In this document: positions 4,053-38,770 of the stretch, in pieces
Numbering within the stretch: position 1 is the stretch's first letter
Layout: each line of letters begins with the position of its first letter
IMG/VR virus record: IMGVR_UViG_3300025133_009964
Location: 1-64,000 of that record
Length of the DNA: 64,000 bases
From: a virus
Reading direction: 5' to 3' (one strand)
The notes under the pieces: model-generated
The model's database searches: none
What the model was told of the DNA's origin: nothing
The model's input: the letters and a program-made list of their open reading frames with translations, nothing else
Made by a program: the position numbers and the translations under genes

Positions 4053-4276
4053 TGGAATTTAATTTAGATAAAGTTAAAGATTGGTTTACGTTTGTTGTTG
4101 CTGTCATAACTTGTATAGCGGGCATAATATTCTGGGTACAGACTACAGATAATGATAGAATTACCAGAATAGAAATTGATATTACAGAACTACGAAGAAA
4201 TATTGATAAAATCGAGTCAGATAGTCGAGAAATTTTACGAATCGTAGGAAGGTTAGAGGGACTAATTGATAAATGA
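4052..4276 (+). CDS. Small TM plus coiled-coil protein
   Basis: A 74-residue protein with a transmembrane helix (about residues 12-30, WFTFVVAVITCIAGIIFWV). A charged coiled coil follows (ITRIEIDITELRRNIDKIE and onward). The layout resembles phage spanin-like or holin-accessory proteins and small membrane-anchored coiled coils generally. It starts on the stop of the preceding gene (TAATG) and its own stop overlaps the lipoprotein start (ATGA). The whole block 3571-6791 is therefore one translationally coupled unit. Function unproven. Confidence 0.6.
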   Translation: MEFNLDKVKDWFTFVVAVITCIAGIIFWVQTTDNDRITRIEIDITELRRNIDKIESDSREILRIVGRLEGLIDK

Positions 4277-6186
4277 GAAAAAAGCACATACTGCCTGGCA
4301 CGTTATTAGCAATATTGCTGGGAATGTGTCTAACAGTATGTAGCGACTCAAATAATCCCGGGATGACCCTGGCACAAGACGTTAGCGAAGATAGTGAAGA
4401 AGAAGATGTTAATAATGGACCAGATATTGTTCCTTGGGTAATTGAAGATCCGGAACCTGATCCGGAATGTATTGAATGTGCAATGTATTTTTGTCCTCCA
4501 TTAGATGCGATATGGAGAAAAGAAATATGTATGAATATTTGCGATGACCCTCCAACACTTTATTCTGAATCTGAATGTATACAGTATATGGAATGTGATC
4601 CAACGCAGTATCTTATTGATGAAGTCGAATGTGTGACAGAAGACGGGTATCCTGGTACTCAGGAAAAAGTCTGTAATAAAGGATTAATCCAATATACAGA
4701 TTGTACTACGGCCTGTGAAGAAGAATTATGCAATTATGAAGATGATGACTGCGACGGTGAAATTGATGAAGGACAGCTGAATGATTGTGGTGAATGTGGT
4801 ATAATTCCCTCAGAAGAATGTAATGGTATTGATGATAATTGTGACGGGGATACAGATGAAGATTTAATTCAGCCTTGTGCTACAGCTTGTGGCGCTGGAT
4901 ATGAAATGTGTTATGAGGGCAAATGGATATCTTGTACTGCTCCTCCAAAAAATGATGAAATATGTGACGGTTTAGATAATGATTGTGACGGCCAGATAGA
5001 TGAAGGATTAGAGTGCGTCTGCACTATACAAGACATTGGTGTTTTATTCCCTTGTCAAGATGATCCTCTTATTTGTGGGCAAGGCTACAAGACTTGTCAA
5101 TGTTTAGATCCTGATTGTATAAATCTAGCGATGACAGAATGTTATGCTTTGTGTTATTGGGCGCCTTCTGGCGATCCAAATGCTATTTGTGATCCTCTTA
5201 TTGGTATGGAATTAAGTCAAGAAAAATGTAATAATTTTGATGACAATTGTAACCAAGAGATTGATGAAGATCTTTTTGGAGCATGCTATACCGGCCCAGA
5301 AGGTACTCTTTTAGTTGGTATATGTATACCCGGAGAAATGACCTGTGATGCAGGAACTTGGGGTAGCTATGATGAAAGCGAAGTTTTCGTCCCCTACTAT
5401 TGCAAGGGTGAAATAGTCCCACAAGAAGAAATTTGTAATGGCCTCGACGATGATTGCGATGGTATAGCAGATTGGGGCGAAGAGATGAAAGAGACAGATG
5501 TGCTCTTTATTGTCGACTGGTCTGGTTCGATGGGCGACGAAATGAGTGCTGTAATGATAGCATTAAATCAGTTTGCACAAAATTTCAGTGATGAAGATGT
5601 TATTAAGTGGGCATTTATGAGAGGCCCAGTAGCTGTGTTACCTTCAACTTATGATGAACGTTTGGAACTAGTACAAGATTTAATTGGATTTTCCGATTAC
5701 TTAGTTTCATTAGCCGGTATGGATACTAGCATGCAATCGATGAGCACTGCCTATGAGATGCTGTTGGATGCGATTTATATATCAGTTCAAAATATAACGG
5801 CTACACTACCACAACCTATTTCTAGTTTTGTTTGGCCCGGGACAGCCAACTTTGGTACAAGTGTGGTCGAATCGGAACCTCCATTACAAAATTTTGATAT
5901 TAGCTGGCGCTCCGGAGCCGATCGTATAATTATTGTTTTTAGTGATGAAGTACCTCAAAGTTATTTAGAGCCAAACTTGAGTATAGAAAATGTAAAAACA
6001 GCTGTTTCTGGTACGCCACAGCTTAAATTATTTACATTTTCTAGAACAGCCGGCTCATCGCAGTGGGAAGATATAGCTGTTGCCGGCAACGGCGCTTGGT
6101 ATAAATTAACAAATAATCCCACAGAAATGTACGCTAGCTTGATGGAGATTCTAGATGAGATATGCAAAGGTGGGACAGATGAATGA
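4273..6186 (+). CDS. MopE-repeat / VWA-domain lipoprotein
   Basis: A predicted exported lipoprotein of 637 residues. The N-terminus has a signal peptide ending in a lipobox (LTVC, Cys about 23), then an acidic linker. Five copies of the Cys-Asp repeat follow: CNYEDDDCDGEIDEG, CNGIDDNCDGDTDED, CDGLDNDCDGQIDEG, CNNFDDNCNQEIDED and CNGLDDDCDGIADWG. This repeat is the MopE-type putative metal-binding motif common in Myxococcota and related bacteria. The C-terminal third is a von Willebrand A domain with the MIDAS start DWSGS (about residues 415-419). It probably sits on a cell surface and binds metal and a protein or glycan ligand. Such a protein is unusual in a phage and suggests transfer from the host. 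It may alter the infected cell surface (superinfection exclusion, aggregation) or be a virion part; neither is shown. Confidence 0.85.
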   Translation: MRKKHILPGTLLAILLGMCLTVCSDSNNPGMTLAQDVSEDSEEEDVNNGPDIVPWVIEDPEPDPECIECAMYFCPPLDAIWRKEICMNICDDPPTLYSESECIQYMECDPTQYLIDEVECVTEDGYPGTQEKVCNKGLIQYTDCTTACEEELCNYEDDDCDGEIDEGQLNDCGECGIIPSEECNGIDDNCDGDTDEDLIQPCATACGAGYEMCYEGKWISCTAPPKNDEICDGLDNDCDGQIDEGLECVCTIQDIGVLFPCQDDPLICGQGYKTCQCLDPDCINLAMTECYALCYWAPSGDPNAICDPLIGMELSQEKCNNFDDNCNQEIDEDLFGACYTGPEGTLLVGICIPGEMTCDAGTWGSYDESEVFVPYYCKGEIVPQEEICNGLDDDCDGIADWGEEMKETDVLFIVDWSGSMGDEMSAVMIALNQFAQNFSDEDVIKWAFMRGPVAVLPSTYDERLELVQDLIGFSDYLVSLAGMDTSMQSMSTAYEMLLDAIYISVQNITATLPQPISSFVWPGTANFGTSVVESEPPLQNFDISWRSGADRIIIVFSDEVPQSYLEPNLSIENVKTAVSGTPQLKLFTFSRTAGSSQWEDIAVAGNGAWYKLTNNPTEMYASLMEILDEICKGGTDE

Positions 6187-7734: not shown

Positions 7735-8362
7735 AAACTGGCGACAGTATTTGGAAGAACAAAATACGCCAGTTGCCCAAAATTATTCGTCTGTTAATAT
7801 TGATAATGATGCTGTACAGCTTTTATTATCTAAAGCAAAAGAACATGTCGGTGAAATTCCGGAAGGTTTTAAAGATAAAGAAGGTAAATGGCCGCACCAT
7901 ATGACAATCAATATGGGCCCTTTGTTACAAGGCTGGGAAGAAGGAAGTGAGCTAGTTTTGGAAATTGATGGATGGGGTATTATTAATGATGAATCCGGAC
8001 AAGCCATGGCCTTCCGTGTAAATAAGACAAAATTGCCGGCTCCAACTAAAAATGCAGCTCCTCATATTACAACATTGGTTGGTCCTGGCGGAAAACCATT
8101 TCATTCTAATAAGATTGTAAATTGGGAGCCCATTGAGTCTTTTGGCGTCAAAGGTACAGTAGTGGCCGCTGCACAGCAAAAGAAAAAAGAAAAACCTAAA
8201 AAACAACAGAAGCCACAAGGTCAAGCTAATCCTGTTGAATTTGCTAAAAGTTTAGCGGCCCGCGGGCTACCGGCAGATAAGATTAAAAATATTATAATGA
8301 ACAAATTTAATAAACCAGAAGCAGCTGCTTTGGGAATTATGAGAGGAGCAGGGATACAATGA
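7718..8362 (+). CDS. 2H phosphoesterase-like protein with capsid-targeting-like N-terminus
   Basis: A protein of 214 residues from ATG 7718; an upstream in-frame ATG at 7667 is rejected because 7718 gives MKLLLENWRQYLEE. Two HxT motifs mark the 2H phosphoesterase fold: H61-M-T63 (PHHMTINMG) and H116-I-T118 (PHITTLVG), about 55 residues apart as usual. Members open 2',3'-cyclic phosphates or cut 2'-5' linkages or cyclic oligonucleotides. Fungal tRNA ligase CPD domains, LigT and the phage anti-CBASS protein Acb1 belong here. A Lys/Gln-rich linker (about 155-170) leads to a C-terminal helical segment. The next gene encodes a kinase-like protein, which suits RNA end healing. Acb1-like cyclic-nucleotide cleavage is the main alternative. 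The overlap with the next start is ATGA. Confidence 0.75.
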   Translation: MKLLLENWRQYLEEQNTPVAQNYSSVNIDNDAVQLLLSKAKEHVGEIPEGFKDKEGKWPHHMTINMGPLLQGWEEGSELVLEIDGWGIINDESGQAMAFRVNKTKLPAPTKNAAPHITTLVGPGGKPFHSNKIVNWEPIESFGVKGTVVAAAQQKKKEKPKKQQKPQGQANPVEFAKSLAARGLPADKIKNIIMNKFNKPEAAALGIMRGAGIQ

Positions 8363-9051
8363 AACTATTACTTGAAAATTGGAGAAAATATTTAACCGAA
8401 GGGGAACAAAATAAAAAAATCTTTGTTTTAGTCGGCCCGCCGTCAATTGGCAAATCAACTTGGATAAAAAATACGTTTGAAGAAACACCCTACATTATTA
8501 ATAGAGATGATATTGCAGAAAGTGTTGCTTCTGAATATGGATGGACATACGATGATATGTTTTCTTCTCCACCGCCAGGCTCCACAGTGGGTGAAAAAGA
8601 TTCAAAATATGGCAAAGTAATTGAATCGCCTTCTTGGATGACTTGGCAGCCTCTTTCTTTTGATAAGGTCATAGAAGCCAACAATAAAGTACAGGATCTT
8701 TTTTCACAAAAAGTCGCCGGCGCAGTACCAAGTGGCTTGGATATTGTTATCGATATGACAAATATGAATTCTGGTGCGCGAGCTAGAGCTTTGGAATCTG
8801 TTGAAGGTCGAGAAGAAGAATATGAAAAGATAGCTGTTGATTTTAAATTTGAAGGTGCTGAAGAATTAATTAAAAAGGTTGCTCATAATAGAACAGAAAC
8901 TGCAAAGAGAATGGGTAAAAGTAAAACAATACCGCCGGCCGCATTTGATAGAATGTTTAAAGCTTATGAAAAACCTTCGCCGGCGGAAGGTTTTGATCAA
9001 ATAGTGGATGTTGATAATCGAGATTTATTAAAAGACTTGGCAAATTCCTAG
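8359..9051 (+). CDS. Polynucleotide-kinase-like P-loop protein with capsid-targeting-like N-terminus
   Basis: A 230-residue protein beginning MKLLLENWRKYLTE|G. A Walker A loop GPPSIGKST lies at about 26-34. NRDD (48-51) sits where T4 Pnk-type 5'-kinases have their substrate-contacting Arg-Asp pair, and a basic lid region (RTETAKRMGKSK) lies near 176-190. The family (AAA_33 / zeta-toxin-like kinases) phosphorylates 5'-OH ends of RNA or DNA, or small molecules in the toxin branch. Next to a 2H phosphoesterase, end healing of cleaved tRNA is the best guess. T4 Pnkp does this against PrrC. No separate phosphatase domain is present, in contrast to T4 Pnkp. Start overlaps the previous stop (ATGA). 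Confidence 0.8.
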   Translation: MKLLLENWRKYLTEGEQNKKIFVLVGPPSIGKSTWIKNTFEETPYIINRDDIAESVASEYGWTYDDMFSSPPPGSTVGEKDSKYGKVIESPSWMTWQPLSFDKVIEANNKVQDLFSQKVAGAVPSGLDIVIDMTNMNSGARARALESVEGREEEYEKIAVDFKFEGAEELIKKVAHNRTETAKRMGKSKTIPPAAFDRMFKAYEKPSPAEGFDQIVDVDNRDLLKDLANS

Positions 9052-18275: not shown

Positions 18276-21266
18276 ATGGGCTATAAACATATGTCCCACA
18301 TATACGAGAATCCAGATCTCAAATTCTCTGAGATAAAGGATATCTTTATAAAGGCGTCAGAAGGAAAGTTGGAAGGAACTGAGAAAACTGATGGCCAAAA
18401 TATGCACGTTTCTTTTTCTGTTGTAGACGGAAAAGCACGAGCTTCTAGAAATGATTCTATGCTTAAAGGCGTGTATGCTGTTAAAGATATGGGAAAGGTT
18501 CGCAAACACCCTCCCGGCGGCGTCGACGCAGTTGGCTGGGCTGAAAAATGGGCCGAGCATCCTTCAAAAACCGTTAGGGCTGCTTTTGCGGAGGCTTTTG
18601 AGATCTTTGAAACGGCAGCAAAATCTTTATCTCCAGAAGAGCAAGAAAAGATATTCGGTGATGGTGTCAATTACTTGATTTTTTATAATTGCGAAGTTCA
18701 AGATCCTAGAAATATGAACACAATTCGCTATGATAAAAAAACCCTAACAGTTCATAGGGTTGGACACCTATACATTGATTTAAAAGATGGTACGGTAAAT
18801 GAAAATATAAGTGTAGAAAACTATGCATATGCTTTACAAAATTCTTTAAGAACAATGCAGAAAAGTATCGAAAATAGTGAATTTGCTTTCGAAATAAATG
18901 CGATTAGGCAACTCAAAGCCTTAACAGATAAAAAACCACTAGATACTGCTCTCCGCGGATTAGAAAGTGTAATTAACGATGCAGGAGTGGCCGATTCTGG
19001 CACTGTTGGAGATTATACAATTGTAAGATTATTAGGAATGATTAGACCTTACGTTAGTTTACCAGAAGAAAAAGAAAAATTATTATTAAAGAAGATATTA
19101 GGACACAAAGGTCTCAAGATTAATTTAGTTAAAAAAGATTTATCGCCTGAAGATAGAGAAGCAGTTGGCCAACTATATTCTGATCGTCGGAAGCTGTTAA
19201 ATAATGCCATTAGACCAGTTGAGAATGTAATACATGATTTTGCTGTTGAAATGTTAAAGAGCTTTGAAAGTGCGTTTGTATTAAATCAAAAAGAAGAAGT
19301 TCAAAGATTAAGAAAAGCCGTTGAAAAAGAAAGAAAAGAAATTGAAAAATCCGGCAGTGAAGAAAAGATGGCCATATTGCTAAGGCATATGGAAAAAATT
19401 AAAGATATTGAAAATATTTCATCAGCTGCCGAAGGATTTGTTTTTGATTATGATGGAAAAACTTATAAATTTACCGGCAATTTCGCACCAATAAATCAAA
19501 TTCTCGGAATTCAAAAATATGATAGAGTATCTACTCCACAAGAAGGAATGGAATATAAGCGTGATGATTCCAATAAAGAATTATCAGAACACGAAGAATA
19601 TCAAGAAGAAACACTGTATGCTATATTTCCAGGAAAATTTAAGCCCCCGCAACGCGGTCACTTAAATGCTGTTGAGCATTATAGTAGAATTGTCGATAGT
19701 ATGGCTGGTTCGAATGGAAAAGTTGTTATTATGGTTTCACCAAAAGAAAAAGAATATGGTGAAAATAATGAAAAGAAAATTACCTGGGATCAATCAATTG
19801 CAATTTGGAAACTTTATATAGAAGACGCGCACCTGAATAATGTCGACATAATTAAATCCCCAAAAATGTCTCCAGTGGCCGCGGCCATTGATTTCGCTTC
19901 AGATATCGCAGAACCAGGCGATCGAATAATATTGGCCGGGAGTACCAAAGGCGGCGATCACCAAAGATTTGCCGGAGATGTTAAAAAACACGCAGCTTTT
20001 GGAGTTGAAGTTTTAGATCCTATGGAATTTATTTATAAACCAGAAGAAATGGGTGGTGATCCAGATATGCACGCTACTGGTTTTCGTGATGCTTTAGCTG
20101 CTGGCGAAAATATAATAGGCTTTATACCAGAAACCTCAGCTTTTAGAGAAGAAGAGATAAGAAATATTTTGTCAGGAGAAGAAAAAAAAAGTCTGACTAT
20201 GGAGTCCCTATTTTCTTTGGTTGAAGAGGCTCTAAGTGAAGATAAAAAACCAAATCCTTGGGCTATATGTACTTCAAAAGTCGGCAGAGAGGACAAAGAT
20301 AAATATGAAAGATGTGTTAAAAGTATAAAATCAAAACATAATATTGACGAAGATCAATTAGAAGAAGAAGAATTAGAAGAAATTTCTGCAGTTTCTGGAG
20401 GGGGTATGCAAGGATCTCCTGGCACAAGAAAAAATAAGGAAACACTAATTAGAGAAATACTACAGACAGGAGTAGCAACAATGTATAATGACAGAGAAGC
20501 ATTAGTTCAAGAAACGCGTTTAAGAGGACTAATTCGTAAAGGCATAAAAATAGTTTTAGAAAGACAAGATAAAGAAAAACAAAAATCTCTTTTAGAAGAA
20601 AAAAAGTTAAGAAAAGTTATTCGTGATTTGATTCTTGAAACCGCTACAGGCGATAATGATCCTACTCCTCATGCATCTACTGGAATTAATGTCTTGGAAG
20701 ATCTTCTTAAAAAGATTATTCCTGTCATAGAAATGGATTTTAAAAAATTAACCTCTAGTGATGACCAGAGAGTTTCATACAGAGCACATATGATACAAGC
20801 AGTTGAAGATACATTGGCGCCAGCAATTGCTTTGACCCACACTGGTCAAGAAGAAACACAAGAATTAGAAGAGCAGGAAGTTGATATTAATGTAGGGGAG
20901 ACTCCACAAAATGATCCATCTTTTATTGATATTCGAACCGATAAAGAAAAATCTGCCGAAGAAGAGATTGAAGAGCCTGATGAAAAAGACGATTTTGGGA
21001 TTGAAGGACAAGACCAAACAGGCAGAAATGTTGCTTTTGATACTTTTAAGAAAATTGGTACAAATATTGTCGATGCATATGATATTTTATCGGCCGATGA
21101 AGATAGAGAACTATTTTATGATTATTTAATCACAAATCTCAAGCTTTATTTTGATAAATTTGAAAACGATATGGGAGTCGTACAAGAACCTACTACTGAT
21201 GAATACGAAGCTGAAGTCGGCCAGAAAGCTGAACCAGAAGCTGAATTGTCTCAACTGCCTCTATAA
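18276..21266 (+). CDS. RNA-ligase-like / NMNAT-like fusion protein
   Basis: A 996-residue multidomain protein. The N-terminal part has nucleotidyl-ligase motifs: motif I K37-T-D-G (EGTEKTDGQNMHVSF), a motif III-like NYLIFYNCEVQ (about 132-142), motif IV E386-G-F-V and motif V YKFTG (about 396-400). A long helical insert lies before motif IV. Next is a nucleotidylyltransferase domain (about 445-620) with FPGKFKPPQRGHLNA, the HxGH-type loop of NMNAT/cytidylyltransferases (QRGH variant), and a late GD.RIILAGS strand. The C-terminal 350 residues are helical and acidic (NPWAICTSKVGREDKDKYE, then LRKVIRDLILET). The pairing suggests sealing of nucleic acid plus NAD or nucleotide chemistry. The C-terminal part may be for virion or complex assembly. 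The first ATG with AAGGA is used. Confidence 0.75.
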   Translation: MGYKHMSHIYENPDLKFSEIKDIFIKASEGKLEGTEKTDGQNMHVSFSVVDGKARASRNDSMLKGVYAVKDMGKVRKHPPGGVDAVGWAEKWAEHPSKTVRAAFAEAFEIFETAAKSLSPEEQEKIFGDGVNYLIFYNCEVQDPRNMNTIRYDKKTLTVHRVGHLYIDLKDGTVNENISVENYAYALQNSLRTMQKSIENSEFAFEINAIRQLKALTDKKPLDTALRGLESVINDAGVADSGTVGDYTIVRLLGMIRPYVSLPEEKEKLLLKKILGHKGLKINLVKKDLSPEDREAVGQLYSDRRKLLNNAIRPVENVIHDFAVEMLKSFESAFVLNQKEEVQRLRKAVEKERKEIEKSGSEEKMAILLRHMEKIKDIENISSAAEGFVFDYDGKTYKFTGNFAPINQILGIQKYDRVSTPQEGMEYKRDDSNKELSEHEEYQEETLYAIFPGKFKPPQRGHLNAVEHYSRIVDSMAGSNGKVVIMVSPKEKEYGENNEKKITWDQSIAIWKLYIEDAHLNNVDIIKSPKMSPVAAAIDFASDIAEPGDRIILAGSTKGGDHQRFAGDVKKHAAFGVEVLDPMEFIYKPEEMGGDPDMHATGFRDALAAGENIIGFIPETSAFREEEIRNILSGEEKKSLTMESLFSLVEEALSEDKKPNPWAICTSKVGREDKDKYERCVKSIKSKHNIDEDQLEEEELEEISAVSGGGMQGSPGTRKNKETLIREILQTGVATMYNDREALVQETRLRGLIRKGIKIVLERQDKEKQKSLLEEKKLRKVIRDLILETATGDNDPTPHASTGINVLEDLLKKIIPVIEMDFKKLTSSDDQRVSYRAHMIQAVEDTLAPAIALTHTGQEETQELEEQEVDINVGETPQNDPSFIDIRTDKEKSAEEEIEEPDEKDDFGIEGQDQTGRNVAFDTFKKIGTNIVDAYDILSADEDRELFYDYLITNLKLYFDKFENDMGVVQEPTTDEYEAEVGQKAEPEAELSQLPL

Positions 21267-21628
21267 TGTGGGAGCCGAAACGAAGAACATATTCGAAGCC
21301 AAATCAAGAATATTATTCAGTATCTAATAAATTAAAATCAGAGGGTAAAATTACTAATGATTTTGAAGTTATGTTGTCTTCTCTGACACTAGAAGATATT
21401 ATAGCCCTTCGTTTGGAGCTAGCCGCAAAAGCGGTTAATGGAAAGCTTTATGGTTTAAAAATTTGGGAGTCAATTCCCAAGATTGTCAAAGAATCGGTTT
21501 TAAAATACACATATTCAGCCGCTAGAACTAAAAATGAAGCAGCTGCTTTTCTTGGAATAAACAAGAATGATTTTCGAAAATTACTTAAGCAGTTCGATAT
21601 TACTAATTTTTTTCAAAAAAATACTTGA
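21266..21628 (+). CDS. Fis-like helix-turn-helix protein
   Basis: A 120-residue protein. The C-terminal 40 residues (SAARTKNEAAAFLGINKNDF, then RKLLKQFDI) match the pattern of a Fis/NtrC-type DNA-binding helix-turn-helix: helix, A..LG....L turn, recognition helix. The N-terminal part is helical and contains LEDIIALRLELAAKAVNGKL. It probably binds DNA as a dimer. The start overlaps the stop of the ligase fusion (TAATG) and the gene ends 47 bases before the tmRNA, so it might regulate that RNA or late genes. Fis-like domains also occur in phage terminase-like or structural proteins, so regulation is not certain. Confidence 0.6.
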   Translation: MWEPKRRTYSKPNQEYYSVSNKLKSEGKITNDFEVMLSSLTLEDIIALRLELAAKAVNGKLYGLKIWESIPKIVKESVLKYTYSAARTKNEAAAFLGINKNDFRKLLKQFDITNFFQKNT

Positions 21629-21675
21629 CTTTATATATTATATTCTTATAATTAAAAACAGCTCTTTAAAATTAT

Positions 21676-21988
21676 GGGGATGAATTGGTATCGACTGGAT
21701 ATCGAGAATATTAAGTGCAAGACTGTGTGGGTAGGCACAGTAAAAAAACCCAAACTTAAAAACGCCAACGATAATAGCGTTAATTTTGATTACGCCCTAG
21801 CGGCATAATCACGGGGCGGCAACAGCCTTGTTAATAAAAGTTGCATTTAGTGTTTAACAATTTGAGAAAAAATGGTTATCCTGTTTGCAACAGGTGGGTG
21901 TTGAAAGGCTGGTAATTCAACTATTCTTGTGAATGACTTAATATTTAAAATATTTAGGACTCGGGTTCGACTCCCGACATCTCCACCA
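21676..21988 (+). ncRNA. ssrA: Transfer-messenger RNA (tmRNA)
   Basis: A complete one-piece tmRNA of about 313 bases. The 5' GGGGATG pairs with 3' CATCTCC to form a seven-pair acceptor stem with one GU. The T-arm carries GGGTTCGACTCCC, and A plus encoded CCA end the molecule. The tag frame starts with resume codon GCC at 21764 and reads ANDNSVNFDYALAA, with TAA at 21806-21808. The YALAA end is the ClpXP/ClpAP-type degradation signal. tmRNA with SmpB rescues stalled ribosomes and tags nascent peptides. A phage copy could sustain translation when host mRNAs and tRNAs are cut. No SmpB gene is in the window, so host SmpB is presumed. Pseudoknots were not folded here. Confidence 0.95.
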
Positions 21989-24064: not shown

Positions 24065-25375
24065 ATGAAAAAAATTTATGTTTTGGACACAAATGTGTTT
24101 TTGACGAATGCTGAGTCGATATTTTCCTTCAAAAATAATGATGTTATTATACCTCTTAAGGTCCTGGAAGAAATTGATAAACATAAAAAAAGACAAGATG
24201 GAGTTGGCTTAAACGCACGCCACACAATTCGCCTTCTTGACGATTTAAGAAGCAAAGGCTCATTGTACAAGGGAGTAAGAATAGCTAAAGGCAAGGGAAT
24301 ATTATCTGTTCGAGGATATGATCCCGAAGATCTTCCTAGGGGCGTCGATATACAGAGCCCAGATAATGAAATTATTACAACAGCAATAACTGAGCATAGA
24401 AAAAACCCCAAAAGAAAAGTGATTGTTGTTACACGCGATATTAATATGCGCGTAAAATGTGATGCCTTACAGATGCCAACAGAAGATTATGTGTCTGAAC
24501 ACATTGTGACAGATACAAATGAACTTTATACTGGTTTTACAAAATGTCTCGTGGATGATCAAATAATAGATAGATTTTATTCCGATGAGGAGGTTATCCT
24601 AGAAGAAGAAGAGCACGAAAAATTATTTCCAAATGAATTCATTATTTTAGTATCGAGTACCGACCAGAAAAAAACTGGGTTGGCAAGATATTATGGACGC
24701 AATAAACCAATTGGAAAAGCAAAAGATTATAAAAAAGGTATATGGGGTCTTTTCCCCAGAAACAAAGAACAATCATTTGGTTTAAACTTATTATTAGATA
24801 AAAATATATCAGTAATTACTATGATAGGAAAAGCAGGTTGTGGCAAAACACTCTTGGCTATAGCGGCCGGCTTAGAGCAGGTTTTGGAAACACATATTTA
24901 TAAAAAATTAATTGTTTCTAGACCGGTCCAGCCCCTTGGCAAAGATATAGGATATCTTCCTGGCACTTTAGAGGAAAAAATGAAGCCTTGGCTGGCGCCA
25001 ATACAAGATAATATTGATTTTCTTTTAAATGGTAAAAAAAGCCATATGGAAATGTTTTTTGAAGATGGCACAATTGAAATAGAAGCCCTGACTTATATCA
25101 GGGGACGTTCTATATCCAATGCTTTCATCATCATTGATGAAGCTCAAAATCTCACGGTTCACGAATTAAAAACCATTATTACAAGAGTTGGAGAAAATAC
25201 AAAAATTATTTTGACTGGAGATATAGAGCAAATTGATAATACCTATTTGGATTCAACCTCTAATGGTCTTTCCTATGCGATAGAGAAATTAAAAAATTAC
25301 GAAATCTCCGGACATATAACCTTGATGAAAGGGGAAAGATCGAAAGTTGCGACGTTAGCAGCAAAAATATTGTGA
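24065..25375 (+). CDS. phoH: PIN-PhoH fusion (PhoH2-type RNase/helicase)
   Basis: A 436-residue protein. The N-terminal PIN domain (about 1-140) shows the acidic metal site: VLDTNVF (D7), a middle Glu/Asp (DNEIITTA) and VTRDINMR. The C-terminal PhoH ATPase has Walker A IGKAGCGKTLLA (about 255-266) and Walker B AFIIIDEAQN (about 355-364), followed by LTGDIEQID. PhoH2 proteins of this layout are reported to unwind and cut RNA. phoH genes are common in marine phages, where their role is debated (phosphate stress or RNA turnover). Lying near a tmRNA and RNA-end enzymes, an RNA role is attractive here. An ATG with TAGGAAAACGA upstream. Confidence 0.92.
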   Translation: MKKIYVLDTNVFLTNAESIFSFKNNDVIIPLKVLEEIDKHKKRQDGVGLNARHTIRLLDDLRSKGSLYKGVRIAKGKGILSVRGYDPEDLPRGVDIQSPDNEIITTAITEHRKNPKRKVIVVTRDINMRVKCDALQMPTEDYVSEHIVTDTNELYTGFTKCLVDDQIIDRFYSDEEVILEEEEHEKLFPNEFIILVSSTDQKKTGLARYYGRNKPIGKAKDYKKGIWGLFPRNKEQSFGLNLLLDKNISVITMIGKAGCGKTLLAIAAGLEQVLETHIYKKLIVSRPVQPLGKDIGYLPGTLEEKMKPWLAPIQDNIDFLLNGKKSHMEMFFEDGTIEIEALTYIRGRSISNAFIIIDEAQNLTVHELKTIITRVGENTKIILTGDIEQIDNTYLDSTSNGLSYAIEKLKNYEISGHITLMKGERSKVATLAAKIL

Positions 25376-32615: not shown

Positions 32616-33697
32616 AATTTTTTAATATAGATTTACACATAGCTGTCATCGCAGACATAAAGAAAATATTTAATGATCTTGGGCACCAAGTTGATGATTG
32701 GACTTTATCTGGACATAGCTGGGCGTTTGGTAGAGAAAGAGATAAAGTTGATATCATAGATCATACAAATTGGCAGAATTTAGATAAAAATATGTGTGAC
32801 GCTTTTTATGAGCGCTATAAAGATGAATTAAGTCATTATGACGGCTTTATTTGTACTTATGCTCCAAGTTTTTGTTTATTATATGAAAAATTTAAAAAAC
32901 CAATAATAACAGTGGCTCCTATAAGATATGAGACTCCCTTTTGGAACGATAAACAAAAGTGGCTATGGCTGAACAACTACCTACAGAAAGGTATTGATAG
33001 TAATCTCATAATACCAATTGCAAACAGTAAGCTTGATAAGAAATATTGCGAAATTCACACTGATCGAGAATGGAAACACATCCCCAGTTTATGTGAATAT
33101 ACAAATTCTTCATATGATCCAAGACAAAATATATTTATTTATTCTTCCTTGTTTCCAATGCAAACAATGCATTATGACGTAATGATTGAAGAAAAACGAA
33201 AAGTCTTGAAGCCGGGTTATGATTGGCAAGACATAGCAGAATTTAAAGGAATTATACATATTCCTTACAATGGTTCATTGATGTCAATATTTGAACAATA
33301 TACTGCCAATATCCCTTTATTTTTCCCTTCATATGAATTTATGTTAAAATTGAGAAAATCTTTCGGACCCAGAGGCGTATTAAATCAACTTTCCTGGAGG
33401 GAGGTATATGGTCTTTCTTCTGGTAAAATTATTGAATATGATGATAACAATAAAACAATTGGTGATATTAATAACTATGGAAACATCGAAGACGAAAAAG
33501 AGTGGATAAAATTATCTGATTTCTATGATCAAGAGTGGATGCCATATGTACAATATTTCGACTCCTTTCAACATCTTTCGTATATACTGAGAGCGCTAGA
33601 CACTGATGATATTAGTCGTAAAATGAGTGATTTTAACAAAACAAGAAAACAAAAAATTTATGATTTATGGAAAGAAGTATTGAGAGATCTTGCATGA
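32612..33697 (+). CDS. Putative glycosyltransferase
   Basis: A 361-residue protein whose ATG at 32612 overlaps the previous stop (ATGA); the in-frame ATG at 32591 lies within the previous gene. Two GT-B-like halves are visible: N-terminal VIADIKKIFNDLGHQVDDW with DGFICTYAPSFCLLYEKFKK, and a C-terminal part with GIIHIPYNGSLMSIFEQYTA and IPLFFPSYEFM, where the donor site should be. No classical E-x7-E box is seen, so the family is not assigned. The position inside the cluster is the main support for function. Confidence 0.55.
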   Translation: MKFFNIDLHIAVIADIKKIFNDLGHQVDDWTLSGHSWAFGRERDKVDIIDHTNWQNLDKNMCDAFYERYKDELSHYDGFICTYAPSFCLLYEKFKKPIITVAPIRYETPFWNDKQKWLWLNNYLQKGIDSNLIIPIANSKLDKKYCEIHTDREWKHIPSLCEYTNSSYDPRQNIFIYSSLFPMQTMHYDVMIEEKRKVLKPGYDWQDIAEFKGIIHIPYNGSLMSIFEQYTANIPLFFPSYEFMLKLRKSFGPRGVLNQLSWREVYGLSSGKIIEYDDNNKTIGDINNYGNIEDEKEWIKLSDFYDQEWMPYVQYFDSFQHLSYILRALDTDDISRKMSDFNKTRKQKIYDLWKEVLRDLA

Positions 33698-34650
33698 AAA
33701 CTGCCTTTATAACTGGAATTAACGGACAGGATGGCTACTATCTTTCTGAGTTTTTATTATTGAAGGGGTATAGAGTATATGGAATGTCACAAAGTGGTTT
33801 GGGATCCCGCAGGCTAAACAAGAGTATCATATGCTTAAAGGGAAATTTGACAGATAAGGATTCTTTAACTAGATGTATAGAAGAATCTAACCCGGATGAA
33901 GTTTATAATTTGGGTGGAATTTCTTCAGTGAAGGAAAGCTGGCGCCTCCCAGAGCTTACAAATGATATTAATGGTGTGGCTGTCCTGCGATTACTTGAGG
34001 CGATAAAAAAATATAATAAAACAATAAAGTTCTATCAAGCCTCCACCAGCGAAATGTATGGAAAACCTGCTACTGCGCCACAGAATGAAACAACACAGTT
34101 TTATCCAAGAAGTCCTTACGGGGCATCGAAATTATTTGGTCATTGGATAACAAAAAATTATAGAGAATCTTATGGCATATATGCTTGCAGCGGAATCCTG
34201 TTCAATCATGAATCAGAGATAAGACCAGAAAAATTTGTTACTAGAAAAATATCAAAAGGGGTGGCTAAAATATTTTTAGAATTGGAGGATTATATTGTCT
34301 TGGGAAATATCGATGGCCACCGTGATTGGGGCTATGCTCCTGATTTTGTTGAAGCAATGTGGTTGATGCTACAGCAAGATAAGCCAGATGATTATGTGAT
34401 TGCTACTGAAAAAAGCAGATCTATCAAGGATTTTGTGATCGCTGCCTTTTCAAGTGTTGGAATTGATGATTGGGAAAAGCACGTTAAGCAAGATAAAAAA
34501 TATATGCGCCCGCTAGACATTGATAATGTAGTTGGTGATTGTACAAAGGCAAAAAAAAATTTGGGCTGGAAACCTAAAGTTACTTTTGAAGCCATGGCCG
34601 CAAGAATGGTTATAAATGATATAAAACTATTAAAACAAAAAATATTTTGA
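33694..34650 (+). CDS. gmd: GDP-mannose 4,6-dehydratase-like SDR
   Basis: A 318-residue short-chain dehydrogenase. NAD(P)-binding TGINGQDGYYLSEFL (about 7-21) is the Gmd form of GxxGxxG. Catalytic STSEMYG (T/S, E) and YGASK (Y-x3-K) follow, with LFNHES and the C-terminal LGW.P. It converts GDP-mannose to GDP-4-keto-6-deoxymannose, the branch point to GDP-fucose, GDP-rhamnose and GDP-perosamine. A second copy lies at 37766. It is slightly shorter than E. coli Gmd and somewhat diverged (SKEESW region SSVKESW), so it might be a GDP-6-deoxy-sugar reductase or epimerase instead. Start overlaps the previous stop (ATGA). Confidence 0.8.
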   Translation: MKTAFITGINGQDGYYLSEFLLLKGYRVYGMSQSGLGSRRLNKSIICLKGNLTDKDSLTRCIEESNPDEVYNLGGISSVKESWRLPELTNDINGVAVLRLLEAIKKYNKTIKFYQASTSEMYGKPATAPQNETTQFYPRSPYGASKLFGHWITKNYRESYGIYACSGILFNHESEIRPEKFVTRKISKGVAKIFLELEDYIVLGNIDGHRDWGYAPDFVEAMWLMLQQDKPDDYVIATEKSRSIKDFVIAAFSSVGIDDWEKHVKQDKKYMRPLDIDNVVGDCTKAKKNLGWKPKVTFEAMAARMVINDIKLLKQKIF

Positions 34651-34666
34651 GGTCGAGAATTTAATA

Positions 34667-35536
34667 ATGCTAAAATATATTTGCTACAACTGGATGCCAT
34701 TGGCTGCAGATCACATTCTAGACCATCCGGAAGACTATTATAAAGAAGCCGGCACCAGCCGGCTCCACACAAAAAACAATTTTAATCCTTTTGATGTGAA
34801 AGAGAATGAACTAATATTTGTCAAAACAGATTTTATTTATTGTAAGCTTTTTCAACTATTTCATTTATCTAAAATTTCTAAAAAGTTTAATCTTATAACT
34901 GGTATATCCGACTACCAGTTAAAGAAAAATGATTATGAGACGATATTAAATCACCCTAAACTAAATAAATGGTTTTGTGCTAACCCTCCGGATGTTCAAG
35001 ATTCTAGAATTATTCCAATACCAATTGGTTTTACAGAGCCGGATAGACCTTGTGGAAAACAGGATGCTTTGAAACAACAGTGTAAAAAAAGACTACAATT
35101 CGGACAAAAAGAGGATTTGATATTTTTACCTTATCATAATTTCAAAACAAACACAGATAGGAAAGAAACATATAACTATTTGAAAACATTACCTTTTGTG
35201 CATGCCGCTACGGAAAAACAGGATTTCAAAGAATATTTAGATACAATCAGCAAATACAAATTTGTCATAAGTCTAGAAGGCAATGGCCCAGATGCGCATA
35301 GAAATTACGAAATTATGTTAATGAATTCAATACCAGTTGGTATAAAGAATGTAATATCTTCGATGTTCGAATACCATAATCTAGAGGGGATATTTTTGAA
35401 TAGTTGGAAAGAACTAGATTCTTCTTATTTCAAGAAAATTTGTAATAAAGACTACTCTCTAGATAATAATTTAGATTTTCTCTCCTTGCAGAGAAATATA
35501 GATTTTGTAAGAAATGCTATTTTAGAGGATAAATGA
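34667..35536 (+). CDS. Putative glycosyltransferase (exostosin-like)
   Basis: A 289-residue protein. The segment KYKFVISLEGNGPDAHRNYE, then IMLMNSIPVG (about 200-230), resembles the donor-binding part of exostosin/GT47- and GT10-like enzymes (KF.isfEG....yrnyEa...gsIPV). The N-terminus has no signal peptide. It lies immediately before the fucosyltransferase-like gene and overlaps it by ATGA. Precise family and donor uncertain. Confidence 0.62.
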   Translation: MLKYICYNWMPLAADHILDHPEDYYKEAGTSRLHTKNNFNPFDVKENELIFVKTDFIYCKLFQLFHLSKISKKFNLITGISDYQLKKNDYETILNHPKLNKWFCANPPDVQDSRIIPIPIGFTEPDRPCGKQDALKQQCKKRLQFGQKEDLIFLPYHNFKTNTDRKETYNYLKTLPFVHAATEKQDFKEYLDTISKYKFVISLEGNGPDAHRNYEIMLMNSIPVGIKNVISSMFEYHNLEGIFLNSWKELDSSYFKKICNKDYSLDNNLDFLSLQRNIDFVRNAILEDK

Positions 35537-36261
35537 TTAAAGTAAATTATATGGGAAGAATGGGAAACAATATGTTTCAATATTCCTTTGGAAGAATTCT
35601 GGCCGAAGAGCTAGGAATGCATTTAGTTTCTAACCCCATTCCAGGATTTCGCACAACTTATCAGAGCGTGTTTGGAAAAAGTAATAATGCTGATGTTCTA
35701 ACAGTTGATGATTCTAACTGTAGGAATATTTTGAACCAAAAGGAGCTTTTAAAAGATAAGTCTTTATTTTTAAATGGCTTTTTTCAATACTATGATCTGT
35801 ATAAACCTTATAAGAAAAGATTGCGGCAATGGTTTAAGCCAAAAAATATGTTTGAAGAGGCAAGAGAAGCAGACATCGTAATTCATATTAGACTAACTGA
35901 TTATATGAATATGCCTGATTATTGGGCTTTACCGGCAAAATATTACCTAAACTGCATAGAAATGAGTAATGCCAAAAATATTCATATTGTTACTGATGAT
36001 CCAGATCATTCGTTTTTAAACAATTTTTCTAAATTTAATCCAAAAATTATCAATGGCGATATGATACGAGATTTTACTTACTTGACATCTGCGAAAAAAA
36101 TGATTTTATCTAGAAGCAGCTTTTCTTTTTGGGCTGGTTTCCTATCAGACGCCGAAGAGATATATTTCCCCAATCCAAATAAGGGTTTTTTGTCTGAAGG
36201 CAACCAAGATCTTTTTGTGGAAGATGAAGAAAGATATAAATCAGTCTCAGTAGAGGTATAA
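35533..36261 (+). CDS. GT11 alpha-1,2-fucosyltransferase-like
   Basis: A 242-residue protein with the GT11 family marks: N-terminal GRMGNNMFQYSFGRILAEEL (G.lGNq.fQya.g..la), the HxR-xx-DY motif I IVIHIRLTDYMNM (about 115-127), and the C-terminal SRSSFSFWAGFLS (motif SsSSfsWWgA). These enzymes move fucose from GDP-fucose to a galactose 2-OH. With the GDP-mannose 4,6-dehydratases on either side, fucosylation is coherent. A GDP-fucose synthase is not clearly present in the window unless one SDR fills it. Cytoplasmic. Starts on the previous stop. Confidence 0.82.
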   Translation: MIKVNYMGRMGNNMFQYSFGRILAEELGMHLVSNPIPGFRTTYQSVFGKSNNADVLTVDDSNCRNILNQKELLKDKSLFLNGFFQYYDLYKPYKKRLRQWFKPKNMFEEAREADIVIHIRLTDYMNMPDYWALPAKYYLNCIEMSNAKNIHIVTDDPDHSFLNNFSKFNPKIINGDMIRDFTYLTSAKKMILSRSSFSFWAGFLSDAEEIYFPNPNKGFLSEGNQDLFVEDEERYKSVSVEV

Positions 36262-36888
36262 ATGTTAATTTCTCTCAAAGAAATAAAAGAAAAATACAAT
36301 TTAGAATTTAAAAATATTATTCACATAGGCGCACACAAAGCAGAAGAATTAAATGATTATGTGTCTGCTGGTATTAAAAAAGTAGTTTGGGTTGAAGCTA
36401 ATCCTACTTTGGTGAATTATTTAAAAACTATTTTAAGAGGACCATATGCCACTGTTTTGCATGCTGCAGTTTCGAACAAAGACGATGAAGAGATACATTT
36501 CAAAATAACGAACAATGGACAATCTTCTTCGATATTAGAATTGGGAATTCATAAGAGTCTATTTCCAGGCGTATCTGTTGCTGAAACGATCATGATGAAG
36601 ACGAAGACACTGAAGACTCTTTTCGAAGAAAATAAGATAGATATTCGAAACTATGATTTCATGAATATCGATATTCAAGGTGCAGAGCTAATGGCCTTAC
36701 AGGGCCTGGGAGAAGATTTAAAACATCTAAAAGCAATATATACTGAAGTTAACACAGATTATGTATATAAAGATTGTTCTTTAATAAATGAAATTGATGA
36801 TTATCTTAGTTTATATGGCTTTAAAAGAATTGCAACAGAAATGTGGCCAGGTCATCCTTGGGGCGACGCCCTATACGTAAAGGAATAA
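36262..36888 (+). CDS. FkbM-family methyltransferase
   Basis: A 208-residue protein with the clear FkbM layout: IIHIGAHKAEELNDYVSAGI (motif I), VVWVEANPTLVNYL (acidic strand), LHAAVSNKDDEE, DFMNIDIQGAELMALQGLG (post-I catalytic region) and the end LYGFKRIATEMW. It should O-methylate a hydroxyl of a sugar in the glycan made by its neighbours. The start directly follows the stop of the fucosyltransferase gene, with TAGAGG upstream. Confidence 0.85.
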   Translation: MLISLKEIKEKYNLEFKNIIHIGAHKAEELNDYVSAGIKKVVWVEANPTLVNYLKTILRGPYATVLHAAVSNKDDEEIHFKITNNGQSSSILELGIHKSLFPGVSVAETIMMKTKTLKTLFEENKIDIRNYDFMNIDIQGAELMALQGLGEDLKHLKAIYTEVNTDYVYKDCSLINEIDDYLSLYGFKRIATEMWPGHPWGDALYVKE

Positions 36889-36890
36889 AT

Positions 36891-37787
36891 ATGAAAGCGT
36901 TAGTAACTGGGGGAGCTGGATTTATTGGCAGCAACTTAGTTGATCAATTGCTGGAAGAAGGTAATCAAGTAGTTGTAATAGATAATGAATCTGCTGATTC
37001 AAATGAACAATTTTATTGGAATAATTTAGCAGAGAACTATAAATATGATATTTGTGATTATGAAAGAATCGCGCCTTTGTTCGAAGGAATAGATGTTGTT
37101 TTTCATTTGGCAGCTGAAGCTAGAATTCAAATAGCAATAAAAAATCCTCTTTTGGCTACAAGAACAAATGTTTTAGGAACTTGTAATGTATTACAAGCTT
37201 CACGAGAAGCTGGAGTTAAGAGAGTTATCTATTCGTCGACGTCTTCAGCATACGGCTTGGCCAATAAGCCTCCACTTAAAGAAAACATGCAGAGAGATTG
37301 CTTAAATCTCTATTCTGTAACCAAATGTGCCGGAGAGGATCTAAGTCTCATGTATAACAGAATATATGGTTTAGAAACTGTCGTATTGAGATATTTTAAC
37401 GTTTATGGAGAAAGACAGCCGCTCAAGGGACAGTATGCCCCTGTAATAGGTATTTTTATGCGCCAGAGCGCCGTTAACGAGCCGATGACTATAGTTGGTG
37501 ACGGAGAGCAAAGAAGGGATTTTACGCACATCTCTGATGCTGTCAGAGCAAACGTTTTAGCTGCTAATTTAGAAAATAGTAGATGTGTAGGGGAAGTGTT
37601 TAACATTGGCACTAGTATAAATTATAATATGTTTGATTTGGTAAAGATTATTGGTGGAGATCACATACATATTCCACCTAGAATTGGAGAATCCAGAGAG
37701 ACTTTAGCGGATATCCATAAGGCCAAAAAAATATTAGATTGGAAACCAAGGATTAATTTAGAAAAATGGATAAAACAGCAATTGTAA
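36891..37787 (+). CDS. NAD-dependent sugar epimerase (SDR)
   Basis: A 298-residue SDR. The ATG at 36891 (AAAGGA upstream) is preferred over an in-frame ATG at 36843 inside the preceding gene. It has the Rossmann start ALVTGGAGFIGSNLVDQLLE, an STSSAYG serine, a YSVTK catalytic Y-x3-K and LRYFNVYG, typical of UDP-glucose/UDP-glucuronate 4-epimerase-like enzymes. It interconverts nucleotide sugars in the cytoplasm. It lacks the longer C-terminal part of GalE; the exact substrate (UDP-Glc, UDP-GlcA or GlcNAc) cannot be read. Overlaps the next gene by 22 bases. Confidence 0.86.
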   Translation: MKALVTGGAGFIGSNLVDQLLEEGNQVVVIDNESADSNEQFYWNNLAENYKYDICDYERIAPLFEGIDVVFHLAAEARIQIAIKNPLLATRTNVLGTCNVLQASREAGVKRVIYSSTSSAYGLANKPPLKENMQRDCLNLYSVTKCAGEDLSLMYNRIYGLETVVLRYFNVYGERQPLKGQYAPVIGIFMRQSAVNEPMTIVGDGEQRRDFTHISDAVRANVLAANLENSRCVGEVFNIGTSINYNMFDLVKIIGGDHIHIPPRIGESRETLADIHKAKKILDWKPRINLEKWIKQQL

Positions 37788-38770
37788 CGGGTGTTACGGG
37801 ACAAGATGGGTCTTATCTTTCAGAGCTTTTGTTATCGAAAGGATACAAAGTTATTGGCTTAAAAAGAAGAACGTCTTTAATAAACACGGATAGAGTCGAT
37901 CACATATACGATCATAAGAATTTTAAATTAGAATATTTTGATTTAAATGATACCGGAAGCATATACAAAATGTTGCTTACTTATAAGCCAGATGAATTTT
38001 ATAATTTAGCTGCGCAGTCACATGTGAGAGTCTCTTTTGATATTCCAGAACATACTGTAGATGGTATTGCTATGGGTACTTTGAGAATTTTGGAAGCCAT
38101 AAGAAATACCAATCCGGAAATAAAATTTTATCAAGCATCTTCTTCGGAAATGTTTGGTGACAATCCAGATTGTGAAAACGGATTCAATGAGGAGTCTAGA
38201 TTAATGCCTGCTTCGCCATATGCTTGTGCAAAAGTATTCGCTCACAATTTGGTTAGAAACTATAGAAAATCATATAATCTATTTGCATCGTCTGGAATCT
38301 TGTTTAATCATGAATCGCCAAGAAGGGGCGAGACTTTTGTAACAAGAAAAATTACAATGGCAGCTGCCAGAATTAAGCTAGGAATACAGGATAAATTATT
38401 TTTAGGTAATTTAGAGGCAAAGAGAGATTGGGGATTTGCTGGCGATTATGTAAGCGTAATGTGGCTAATGTTACAGCAAAAAAAAGCAGATGATTTCGTA
38501 ATTTCAACTGGCGAAACACATACAGTAAGAGAATTTTTAGAATATGTTTTTGAATATGCTGGATTAGGATCTTATGAAAAATATGTAGAAATTGATCCTA
38601 GATTTTATCGACCTCAAGAAGTACCATTTCTTTTGGGTGATTCTACAAAGGCTCAGAAGACTTTAAATTGGGAGCCAGAGGTAAAATTTAAAGATTTGGC
38701 AAAGATGATGTATGATTATGATTACAGATTAATAAAAGGAGATAAAAATGACGTTGCAAAGTGGCTTTAA
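37766..38770 (+). CDS. gmd: GDP-mannose 4,6-dehydratase
   Basis: A 334-residue SDR, a clearer Gmd than the copy at 33694. It has TGVTGQDGSYLSELLLSKGY (cofactor loop), GLKRRTSLINTDRVDH (NADP 2'-phosphate contact loop), LAAQSHVRVSF, SSSEMFG (S/E catalytic), YACAKVFAH (Y-x3-K) and LFNHESPRRGETFVTRKI, all standard for Gmd. Product: GDP-4-keto-6-deoxy-D-mannose. It closes the glycan cluster and its 3' end overlaps the next small gene by 23 bases. Confidence 0.92.
   Translation: MDKTAIVTGVTGQDGSYLSELLLSKGYKVIGLKRRTSLINTDRVDHIYDHKNFKLEYFDLNDTGSIYKMLLTYKPDEFYNLAAQSHVRVSFDIPEHTVDGIAMGTLRILEAIRNTNPEIKFYQASSSEMFGDNPDCENGFNEESRLMPASPYACAKVFAHNLVRNYRKSYNLFASSGILFNHESPRRGETFVTRKITMAAARIKLGIQDKLFLGNLEAKRDWGFAGDYVSVMWLMLQQKKADDFVISTGETHTVREFLEYVFEYAGLGSYEKYVEIDPRFYRPQEVPFLLGDSTKAQKTLNWEPEVKFKDLAKMMYDYDYRLIKGDKNDVAKWL

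Follow-up and report, generated by a model that had tools for sequence, protein, structure and literature searches.

A 64,000-nt stretch of DNA (here the window) from a 68,145-bp IMG/VR virus record carries what looks like a tmRNA with a peptide tag of its own, and the question that this raises is whether the phage keeps it as a working gene and, if so, how it is transcribed and from which lineage it came.

Identification of the tmRNA gene

The earlier note on this DNA had read a complete phage tmRNA with its tag from the letters alone, and this was borne out by two programs that return identical coordinates. ARAGORN calls a single gene in the window, a tmRNA at 21676-21988 on the plus strand (the strand of all features below unless stated otherwise), with the tag ANDNSVNFDYALAA*, and the Rfam tmRNA model RF00023 matches the same stretch at 116.7 bits (E 6.5e-45; gathering score 47 bits) over its full length, model positions 1-374. 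The covariance-model search that the note had proposed thus confirms a full-length one-piece tmRNA gene (ssrA), the only one in the source record. The acceptor stem, T-arm, encoded CCA, resume codon GCC and tag ending in YALAA that had been listed are all present, followed by the stop codon UAA, and the folding energy is far below that of shuffled sequences (z = -3.9, 0/100). The phage is contractile-tailed, as region 56870-58660 matches baseplate wedge families, and its record is probably a fragment since related records reach 185-191 kb. The PIN-PhoH protein is less than 40% identical to that of any named phage, which suggests that the phage belongs to a group with no close relative among those named.

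Structure and covariation

Relatives in IMG/VR were collected by way of the PhoH gene and of two parts of the tmRNA, its tag and its 5' end; their contigs hold about 48 distinct one-piece tmRNAs, which are 305-434 nt long. The structure scored in 22 of these comprised the acceptor stem, T-arm, H2, PK1, H5, PK2 and the 3' hairpins; 86.9% of the cells are paired against 39-46% when the partners are slid, and double-change cells number 146 against 54 after shuffling. The tRNA-Ala-like domain is intact. Its acceptor stem GGGGAUG/CAUCUCC (5' strand 21676-21682; 3' strand with the encoded ACCA 21978-21988) holds the G3-U70 wobble, the alanine-identity pair, which is GU in 22/22 relatives, and the T-arm UCGGG-UUCGACU-CCCGA (21961-21977; helix 12 of the alignment) is 100% paired, with compensatory changes in its stem. 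Six tmRNA genes of relatives (L034, L040, L045, L025, L112 and L028) end in CCT, CTT or CTA in place of an encoded CCA, so that CCA addition by the host would be needed there.

The four pseudoknots that the note had anticipated are found in part. PK1 (21722-21751, ACUGUG/CACAGU and GGGU/ACCC; helices 4 and 5 of the alignment, 97.7 and 100% paired with compensatory changes) and PK2 (21811-21844, ACGGGGC/GCCUUGU and GCAAC/GUUGC, with counterparts UAGUC/GACUA, GCAGC/GCUGC and others in relatives) are well supported by clear covariation. Between them a helix 5 hairpin (21788-21810; helix 6 of the alignment, 90.9% paired) encloses the tag end and the stop codon. PK3 and PK4, which are not universal among tmRNAs, look degenerate in the window's own copy: their region (21880-21921) forms two hairpins, CCUGU/ACAGG and GUUGA/UCAAC (helix 11, 96.4% paired, compensatory), and no pseudoknot was found there either in this copy or in its sister L083. 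The PK3/PK4 helices were sought in near relatives, the Rfam alignment being unreliable in this region (low posterior probability), and PK3 is a covarying pseudoknot-like element with a 7-bp stem in L089, L092, L095 and L261. Since Escherichia coli tmRNA stays active when its pseudoknots are replaced (PMC2481249), the missing PK3 and PK4 do not exclude function.

Tag and resume context

The tag reading frame (21764-21808, GCC to TAA, encoding ANDNSVNFDYALAA) has a pN/pS of 0.14 over 36 distinct relatives, that is, purifying selection. Residues A1, V5 and A10-L11-A12-A13 are invariant as amino acids while the codons vary at most of these positions; because some tag codons pair in H5, the constraint is partly structural. 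Tagging itself, and not only ribosome release, nevertheless appears to be selected, as a role in rescue alone would not demand conservation of the tag. Around the resume site, the frame-setting A at -4, equivalent to E. coli A86 whose loss destroys tmRNA activity (PMC2481249), is present in 48/48 phage tmRNAs; the window copy has an Ala resume codon, A at -4 and an ALAA end followed by a stop. It carries A at -5 instead of the usual U, and the change U85A impairs E. coli tmRNA (PMC2481249); as with the replaceable pseudoknots, we do not read this as excluding function.

The commonest phage tag is ANDNVEFDYALAA, and the general pattern, ANDN-(S)V-x-F-D-YALAA, has residues between ANDN and YALAA. 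Two calls of ARAGORN differ from the sequence. It miscalls the tag of L129, where the usual one is present, and in L256 (IMGVR_UViG_3300025133_000038, a related phage tmRNA at 38-358) the frame open from GCA gives a 35-residue tag with an internal repeat, ANLNVSVMTGALAGTSRSLTGTKTRSLTGTFALAA, of which only the last 25 residues are called.

Locus, neighbours and partner protein

In most relatives the tmRNA occupies the same locus. The order g18276 - g21266 - tmRNA - trypsin-like gene (minus strand) - PhoH - g25755 - exonuclease recurs in more than 40 contigs and ends, after the exonuclease, with two glycosyltransferase-like genes (named by eye). Directly upstream of the tmRNA, here as in most relatives, lies the conserved 120-aa gene g21266 (21266-21628), and the PIN-PhoH gene (24065-25375) follows 2.1 kb downstream. 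The 996-aa product of g18276 (18276-21266) shows by eye a KTDGQN ligase-type motif and a GKFKPPQRGH cytidylyltransferase-like motif; it has no Pfam or PHROG family, and a PDB search gave nothing beyond a weak match to phosphopantetheine adenylyltransferase (E 0.088). Elsewhere in the window, three GDP-mannose dehydratase/epimerase-type genes (33667-38770) form part of a sugar-modification cluster.

Phage tmRNAs had been called known but rare. This holds for phages at large, with tmRNA in 402 of 18,146 in a 2021 survey (PMC9004378), and fails for the present group, in which the gene is common and syntenic. It is missing from the locus in the relatives closest by PhoH (L005-L009 and L011), and three of the closest-by-PhoH records (G006, G007 and G008) carry it elsewhere; its absence at the locus in L005, L006 and L011 indicates that it is not essential for the group. 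In these same three the order g21266 - trypsin - PhoH is retained, so nearness to PIN-PhoH is no evidence of a shared pathway. A functional pairing of PhoH with the tmRNA is accordingly unsupported, and the link to PIN-PhoH and RNA end-healing genes drawn in the earlier note is weak, the kinase-like gene (8359-9051) also lying 12.6 kb from the tmRNA. Its remark that no SmpB gene is in view was correct and extends from the 68,145-bp record to 30 related records, five of them of 185-191 kb. The phage tmRNA must therefore use host SmpB, if it works, and we infer the host protein as its partner.

A promoter and boxA-like element in the leader

Upstream of the tmRNA lies a sigma70-type promoter (21625-21652, TTGACT-16 nt-TATAAT, 11/12), at the same position in the sister L002; promoters scoring at least 11/12 occur in 9/48 phage leaders against 6/960 random windows. 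Unexpectedly, this putative promoter is followed, before the tmRNA start, by a boxA-like element (GCTCTTTAAAA, 21661-21671), and the two appear to form the tmRNA leader. BoxA is the binding site of NusB/NusE and is otherwise known from ribosomal-RNA genes. The element matches exactly GYTCTTTAANA, the published consensus of the boxA that serves the Nus-factor complex (PMC5725501). By itself the match is weak, because the window holds three where 0.74 are expected.

Leaders were therefore compared for the pattern G(N)TCTTT[TGA] at 8-30 nt before the tmRNA, for which the random rate is 2.1%. Treating leaders as independent, it is found in 14/45 distinct phage leaders (p 2e-13), in 13/48 Myxococcota (p 3e-16) and in 9/31 others (p 7e-10), all nine of the latter being Ignavibacteria/Chlorobi records. 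After clustering at 70% identity it is kept in 9/29 independent phage leader clusters, alongside 13/50 Myxococcota and 9/32 other leaders. The reversed motif, used as a control, occurs in 0/48 phage, 2/50 Myxococcota and 2/32 other leaders, the complemented and reverse-complemented motifs in 0/48 phage leaders, and the boxA-like motif itself in 0/64 phage tRNA leaders. In three of the four Myxococcota genomes with a 16S leader examined, the rrn boxA ([GTC]TCTTTGAAAACT), which lies 122-218 nt before the 16S start site used, has its core in common with the genome's own ssrA leader.

These leaders may indicate that ssrA transcription in the phage group and in some bacteria (Myxococcota, Ignavibacteria) runs through a boxA leader of the rRNA type, which would couple tmRNA synthesis to the Nus antitermination/folding complex, and that the phage carries this control together with the gene and would make tmRNA in the manner of ribosomal RNA during infection. 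We put this forward tentatively, at somewhat less than an even chance; as the element lies close to where the transcript is predicted to begin, a role in initial transcription or in processing is also possible. The boxA leader is the novel part of our findings: in a literature search on boxA and ssrA, the paper likeliest to connect the two does not do so, and the boxA survey cited above states that non-coding RNAs were not considered (PMC5725501). Through this leader, a connection between ribosome rescue and the machinery that transcribes rRNA can be tested directly, in bacteria as well as in phages.

Donor and host lineage

The suggestion that the tag may reveal the host finds some backing in part of the tag only. 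Among 84,980 bacterial and archaeal genomes not one has the full phage tag, which closes this route to the donor. Its degenerate form VxF[DN]YALAA, present in 34 viral contig stretches, is likewise missing from these genomes; a looser ANDN..YALAA pattern served as a working positive control for the search. The ANDNVE part of related tags points to Myxococcota. Among the three phyla searched the pattern ANDNVE..AA is specific to this one (27/284 genomes; phylum of two Myxococcales records), with 0/398 in Pseudomonadota (phylum of a Rhizobium) and 0/297 in Desulfobacterota (phylum of Halodesulfovibrio), and two Myxococcota tags, ANDNVEHDLALAA and ANDNVEHNLALAA, agree with the commonest phage tag in length and pattern. 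By the RNA body without the tag, Myxococcota also rank first but are not separated from the others (p 0.11), and this comparison does not settle the donor. A Myxococcota-like donor or host is thus a lead, not proof, and the tag a lead towards the host lineage. At 4273-6186 the window encodes a protein of 637 aa in which a MopE metal-binding motif is found (PF11617, E 3e-11), a motif that is frequent in Myxococcota proteins.

Proposed function and alternative explanations

Taken together, the full Rfam and ARAGORN match, the covarying structure, the invariant G3-U70 and A(-4), the low pN/pS of the tag, the conserved locus, and the promoter with its boxA leader make it probable that this is a functional one-piece tmRNA gene maintained by the phage. 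The A at -5, the lack of a clear PK3 and PK4, the absence from the locus in the three close relatives and the lack of an SmpB gene in the record speak against function. The RNA would be transcribed from its own sigma70-type promoter through the short boxA-bearing leader, both seen in the sequence, and, following established tmRNA biology, would be processed by host RNases and, given G3-U70, charged with alanine by host AlaRS. During infection, host SmpB and EF-Tu would load it onto ribosomes that have stalled on truncated mRNA; the tag would then be appended, and its LAA end would direct the product to host proteases such as ClpXP. The phage may gain recycled ribosomes and clearance of truncated proteins when the host supply of tmRNA is limiting. 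There is a precedent in mycobacteriophage Wildcat, which expresses no lytic gene more highly than its tmRNA (PMC7474061).

The sequence could instead be a recently captured host ssrA without any role, a neutral passenger from integration or recombination at the host ssrA locus. That ssrA is a frequent integration site and that some close relatives lack the gene or carry it elsewhere would fit, but a passenger would hardly leave about 48 diverged copies that keep the tag amino acids, A86 and the base pairs at a locus conserved over many contigs, with a full tag absent from all the bacterial and archaeal genomes searched. These observations argue for an old phage lineage and not a fresh capture, and leave the passenger reading very improbable. 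(Integration at ssrA is discussed in PMC9004378.) We give equally little credence to a decoy that titrates SmpB and so inhibits trans-translation in the host, a role that has been suggested for the TLD-only RNA of phage DS6A (PMC4131195): a decoy needs no tag, and in these copies conservation extends to the entire tag, its stop codon, the resume context and PK1/PK2. In favour of such a decoy, a possible parallel to the DS6A RNA exists in the viral contig L258 (IMGVR_UViG_3300009149_004092, minus strand near 1733), where a tmRNA 5' end and an acceptor 3' end lie about 140 nt apart with no tag and a degenerate T-loop, as in a TLD-only relic or decoy.

Slightly less remote, yet still unlikely, is that rescue works and that the longer tag shifts the choice of protease or adaptor to the benefit of the phage. 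The residues between ANDN and YALAA, in a form that no bacterial or archaeal genome searched shares, would suit such a re-aimed tag; against it, the protease-recognised LAA end is unchanged, and Myxococcota tags such as ANDNVEHDLALAA share length and pattern, so that length alone is not phage-specific. We thus retain a functional tmRNA that the phage maintains. For at least one large group of presumably environmental myophages, tmRNA would then be a long-kept gene with both its structure and its tag under selection. This argues that tagging, and not ribosome release alone, is of profit to phages.

Comparison with known tmRNA systems

Phage tmRNAs are already established, with ten listed in 2014 (PMC4131195) and some huge phages carrying tmRNA together with SmpB (PMC7162821); the window copy adds one more, from a group that seems to have no close named relative. 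Mycobacteriophages Bxz1 and Wildcat, Bacillus phage G and Streptomyces phages likewise have a complete tmRNA with a tag of its own. Annotated phage DNA matches the window tmRNA in Streptomyces phages only (LukeCage and Yaboi; tag ANSNVASAYALAA), which belong to an unrelated group and differ in tag, no more than 27% of the query aligning, at 72% identity. Melnitz and the pelagimyophages (PMC9004378) are also large environmental myophages whose tmRNA has its own regulatory leader, but theirs is a glutamine riboswitch before a two-piece RNA of alphaproteobacterial type, whereas the window phage has a one-piece RNA and a boxA-like leader. Two unrelated viral contigs, L262 and L264, found through a shared 5' motif, give a permuted tmRNA call with the tag GTYEYRLAA.

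With the bacterial one-piece tmRNA (RF00023) the phage copy shares the acceptor stem with G3-U70, T-arm, CCA, H2, PK1, PK2, the resume codon GCC and a tag ending in YALAA. It is AT-rich and, at 313 nt, shorter than the bacterial copies compared (about 340-410 nt), has PK3/PK4 reduced to hairpins, and its tag is absent from bacterial genomes. The ANDNVE tmRNAs of Myxococcota (L207, L237, L312 and L313) are GC-rich and longer, and in the RNA body no more similar to the phage than some Firmicutes or Ignavibacteria; they share with it the tag start ANDNVE, within the 13-residue pattern ANDNVEH[DN]LALAA, and two of them (L312 and L313) have a boxA-like leader, as the phage does.
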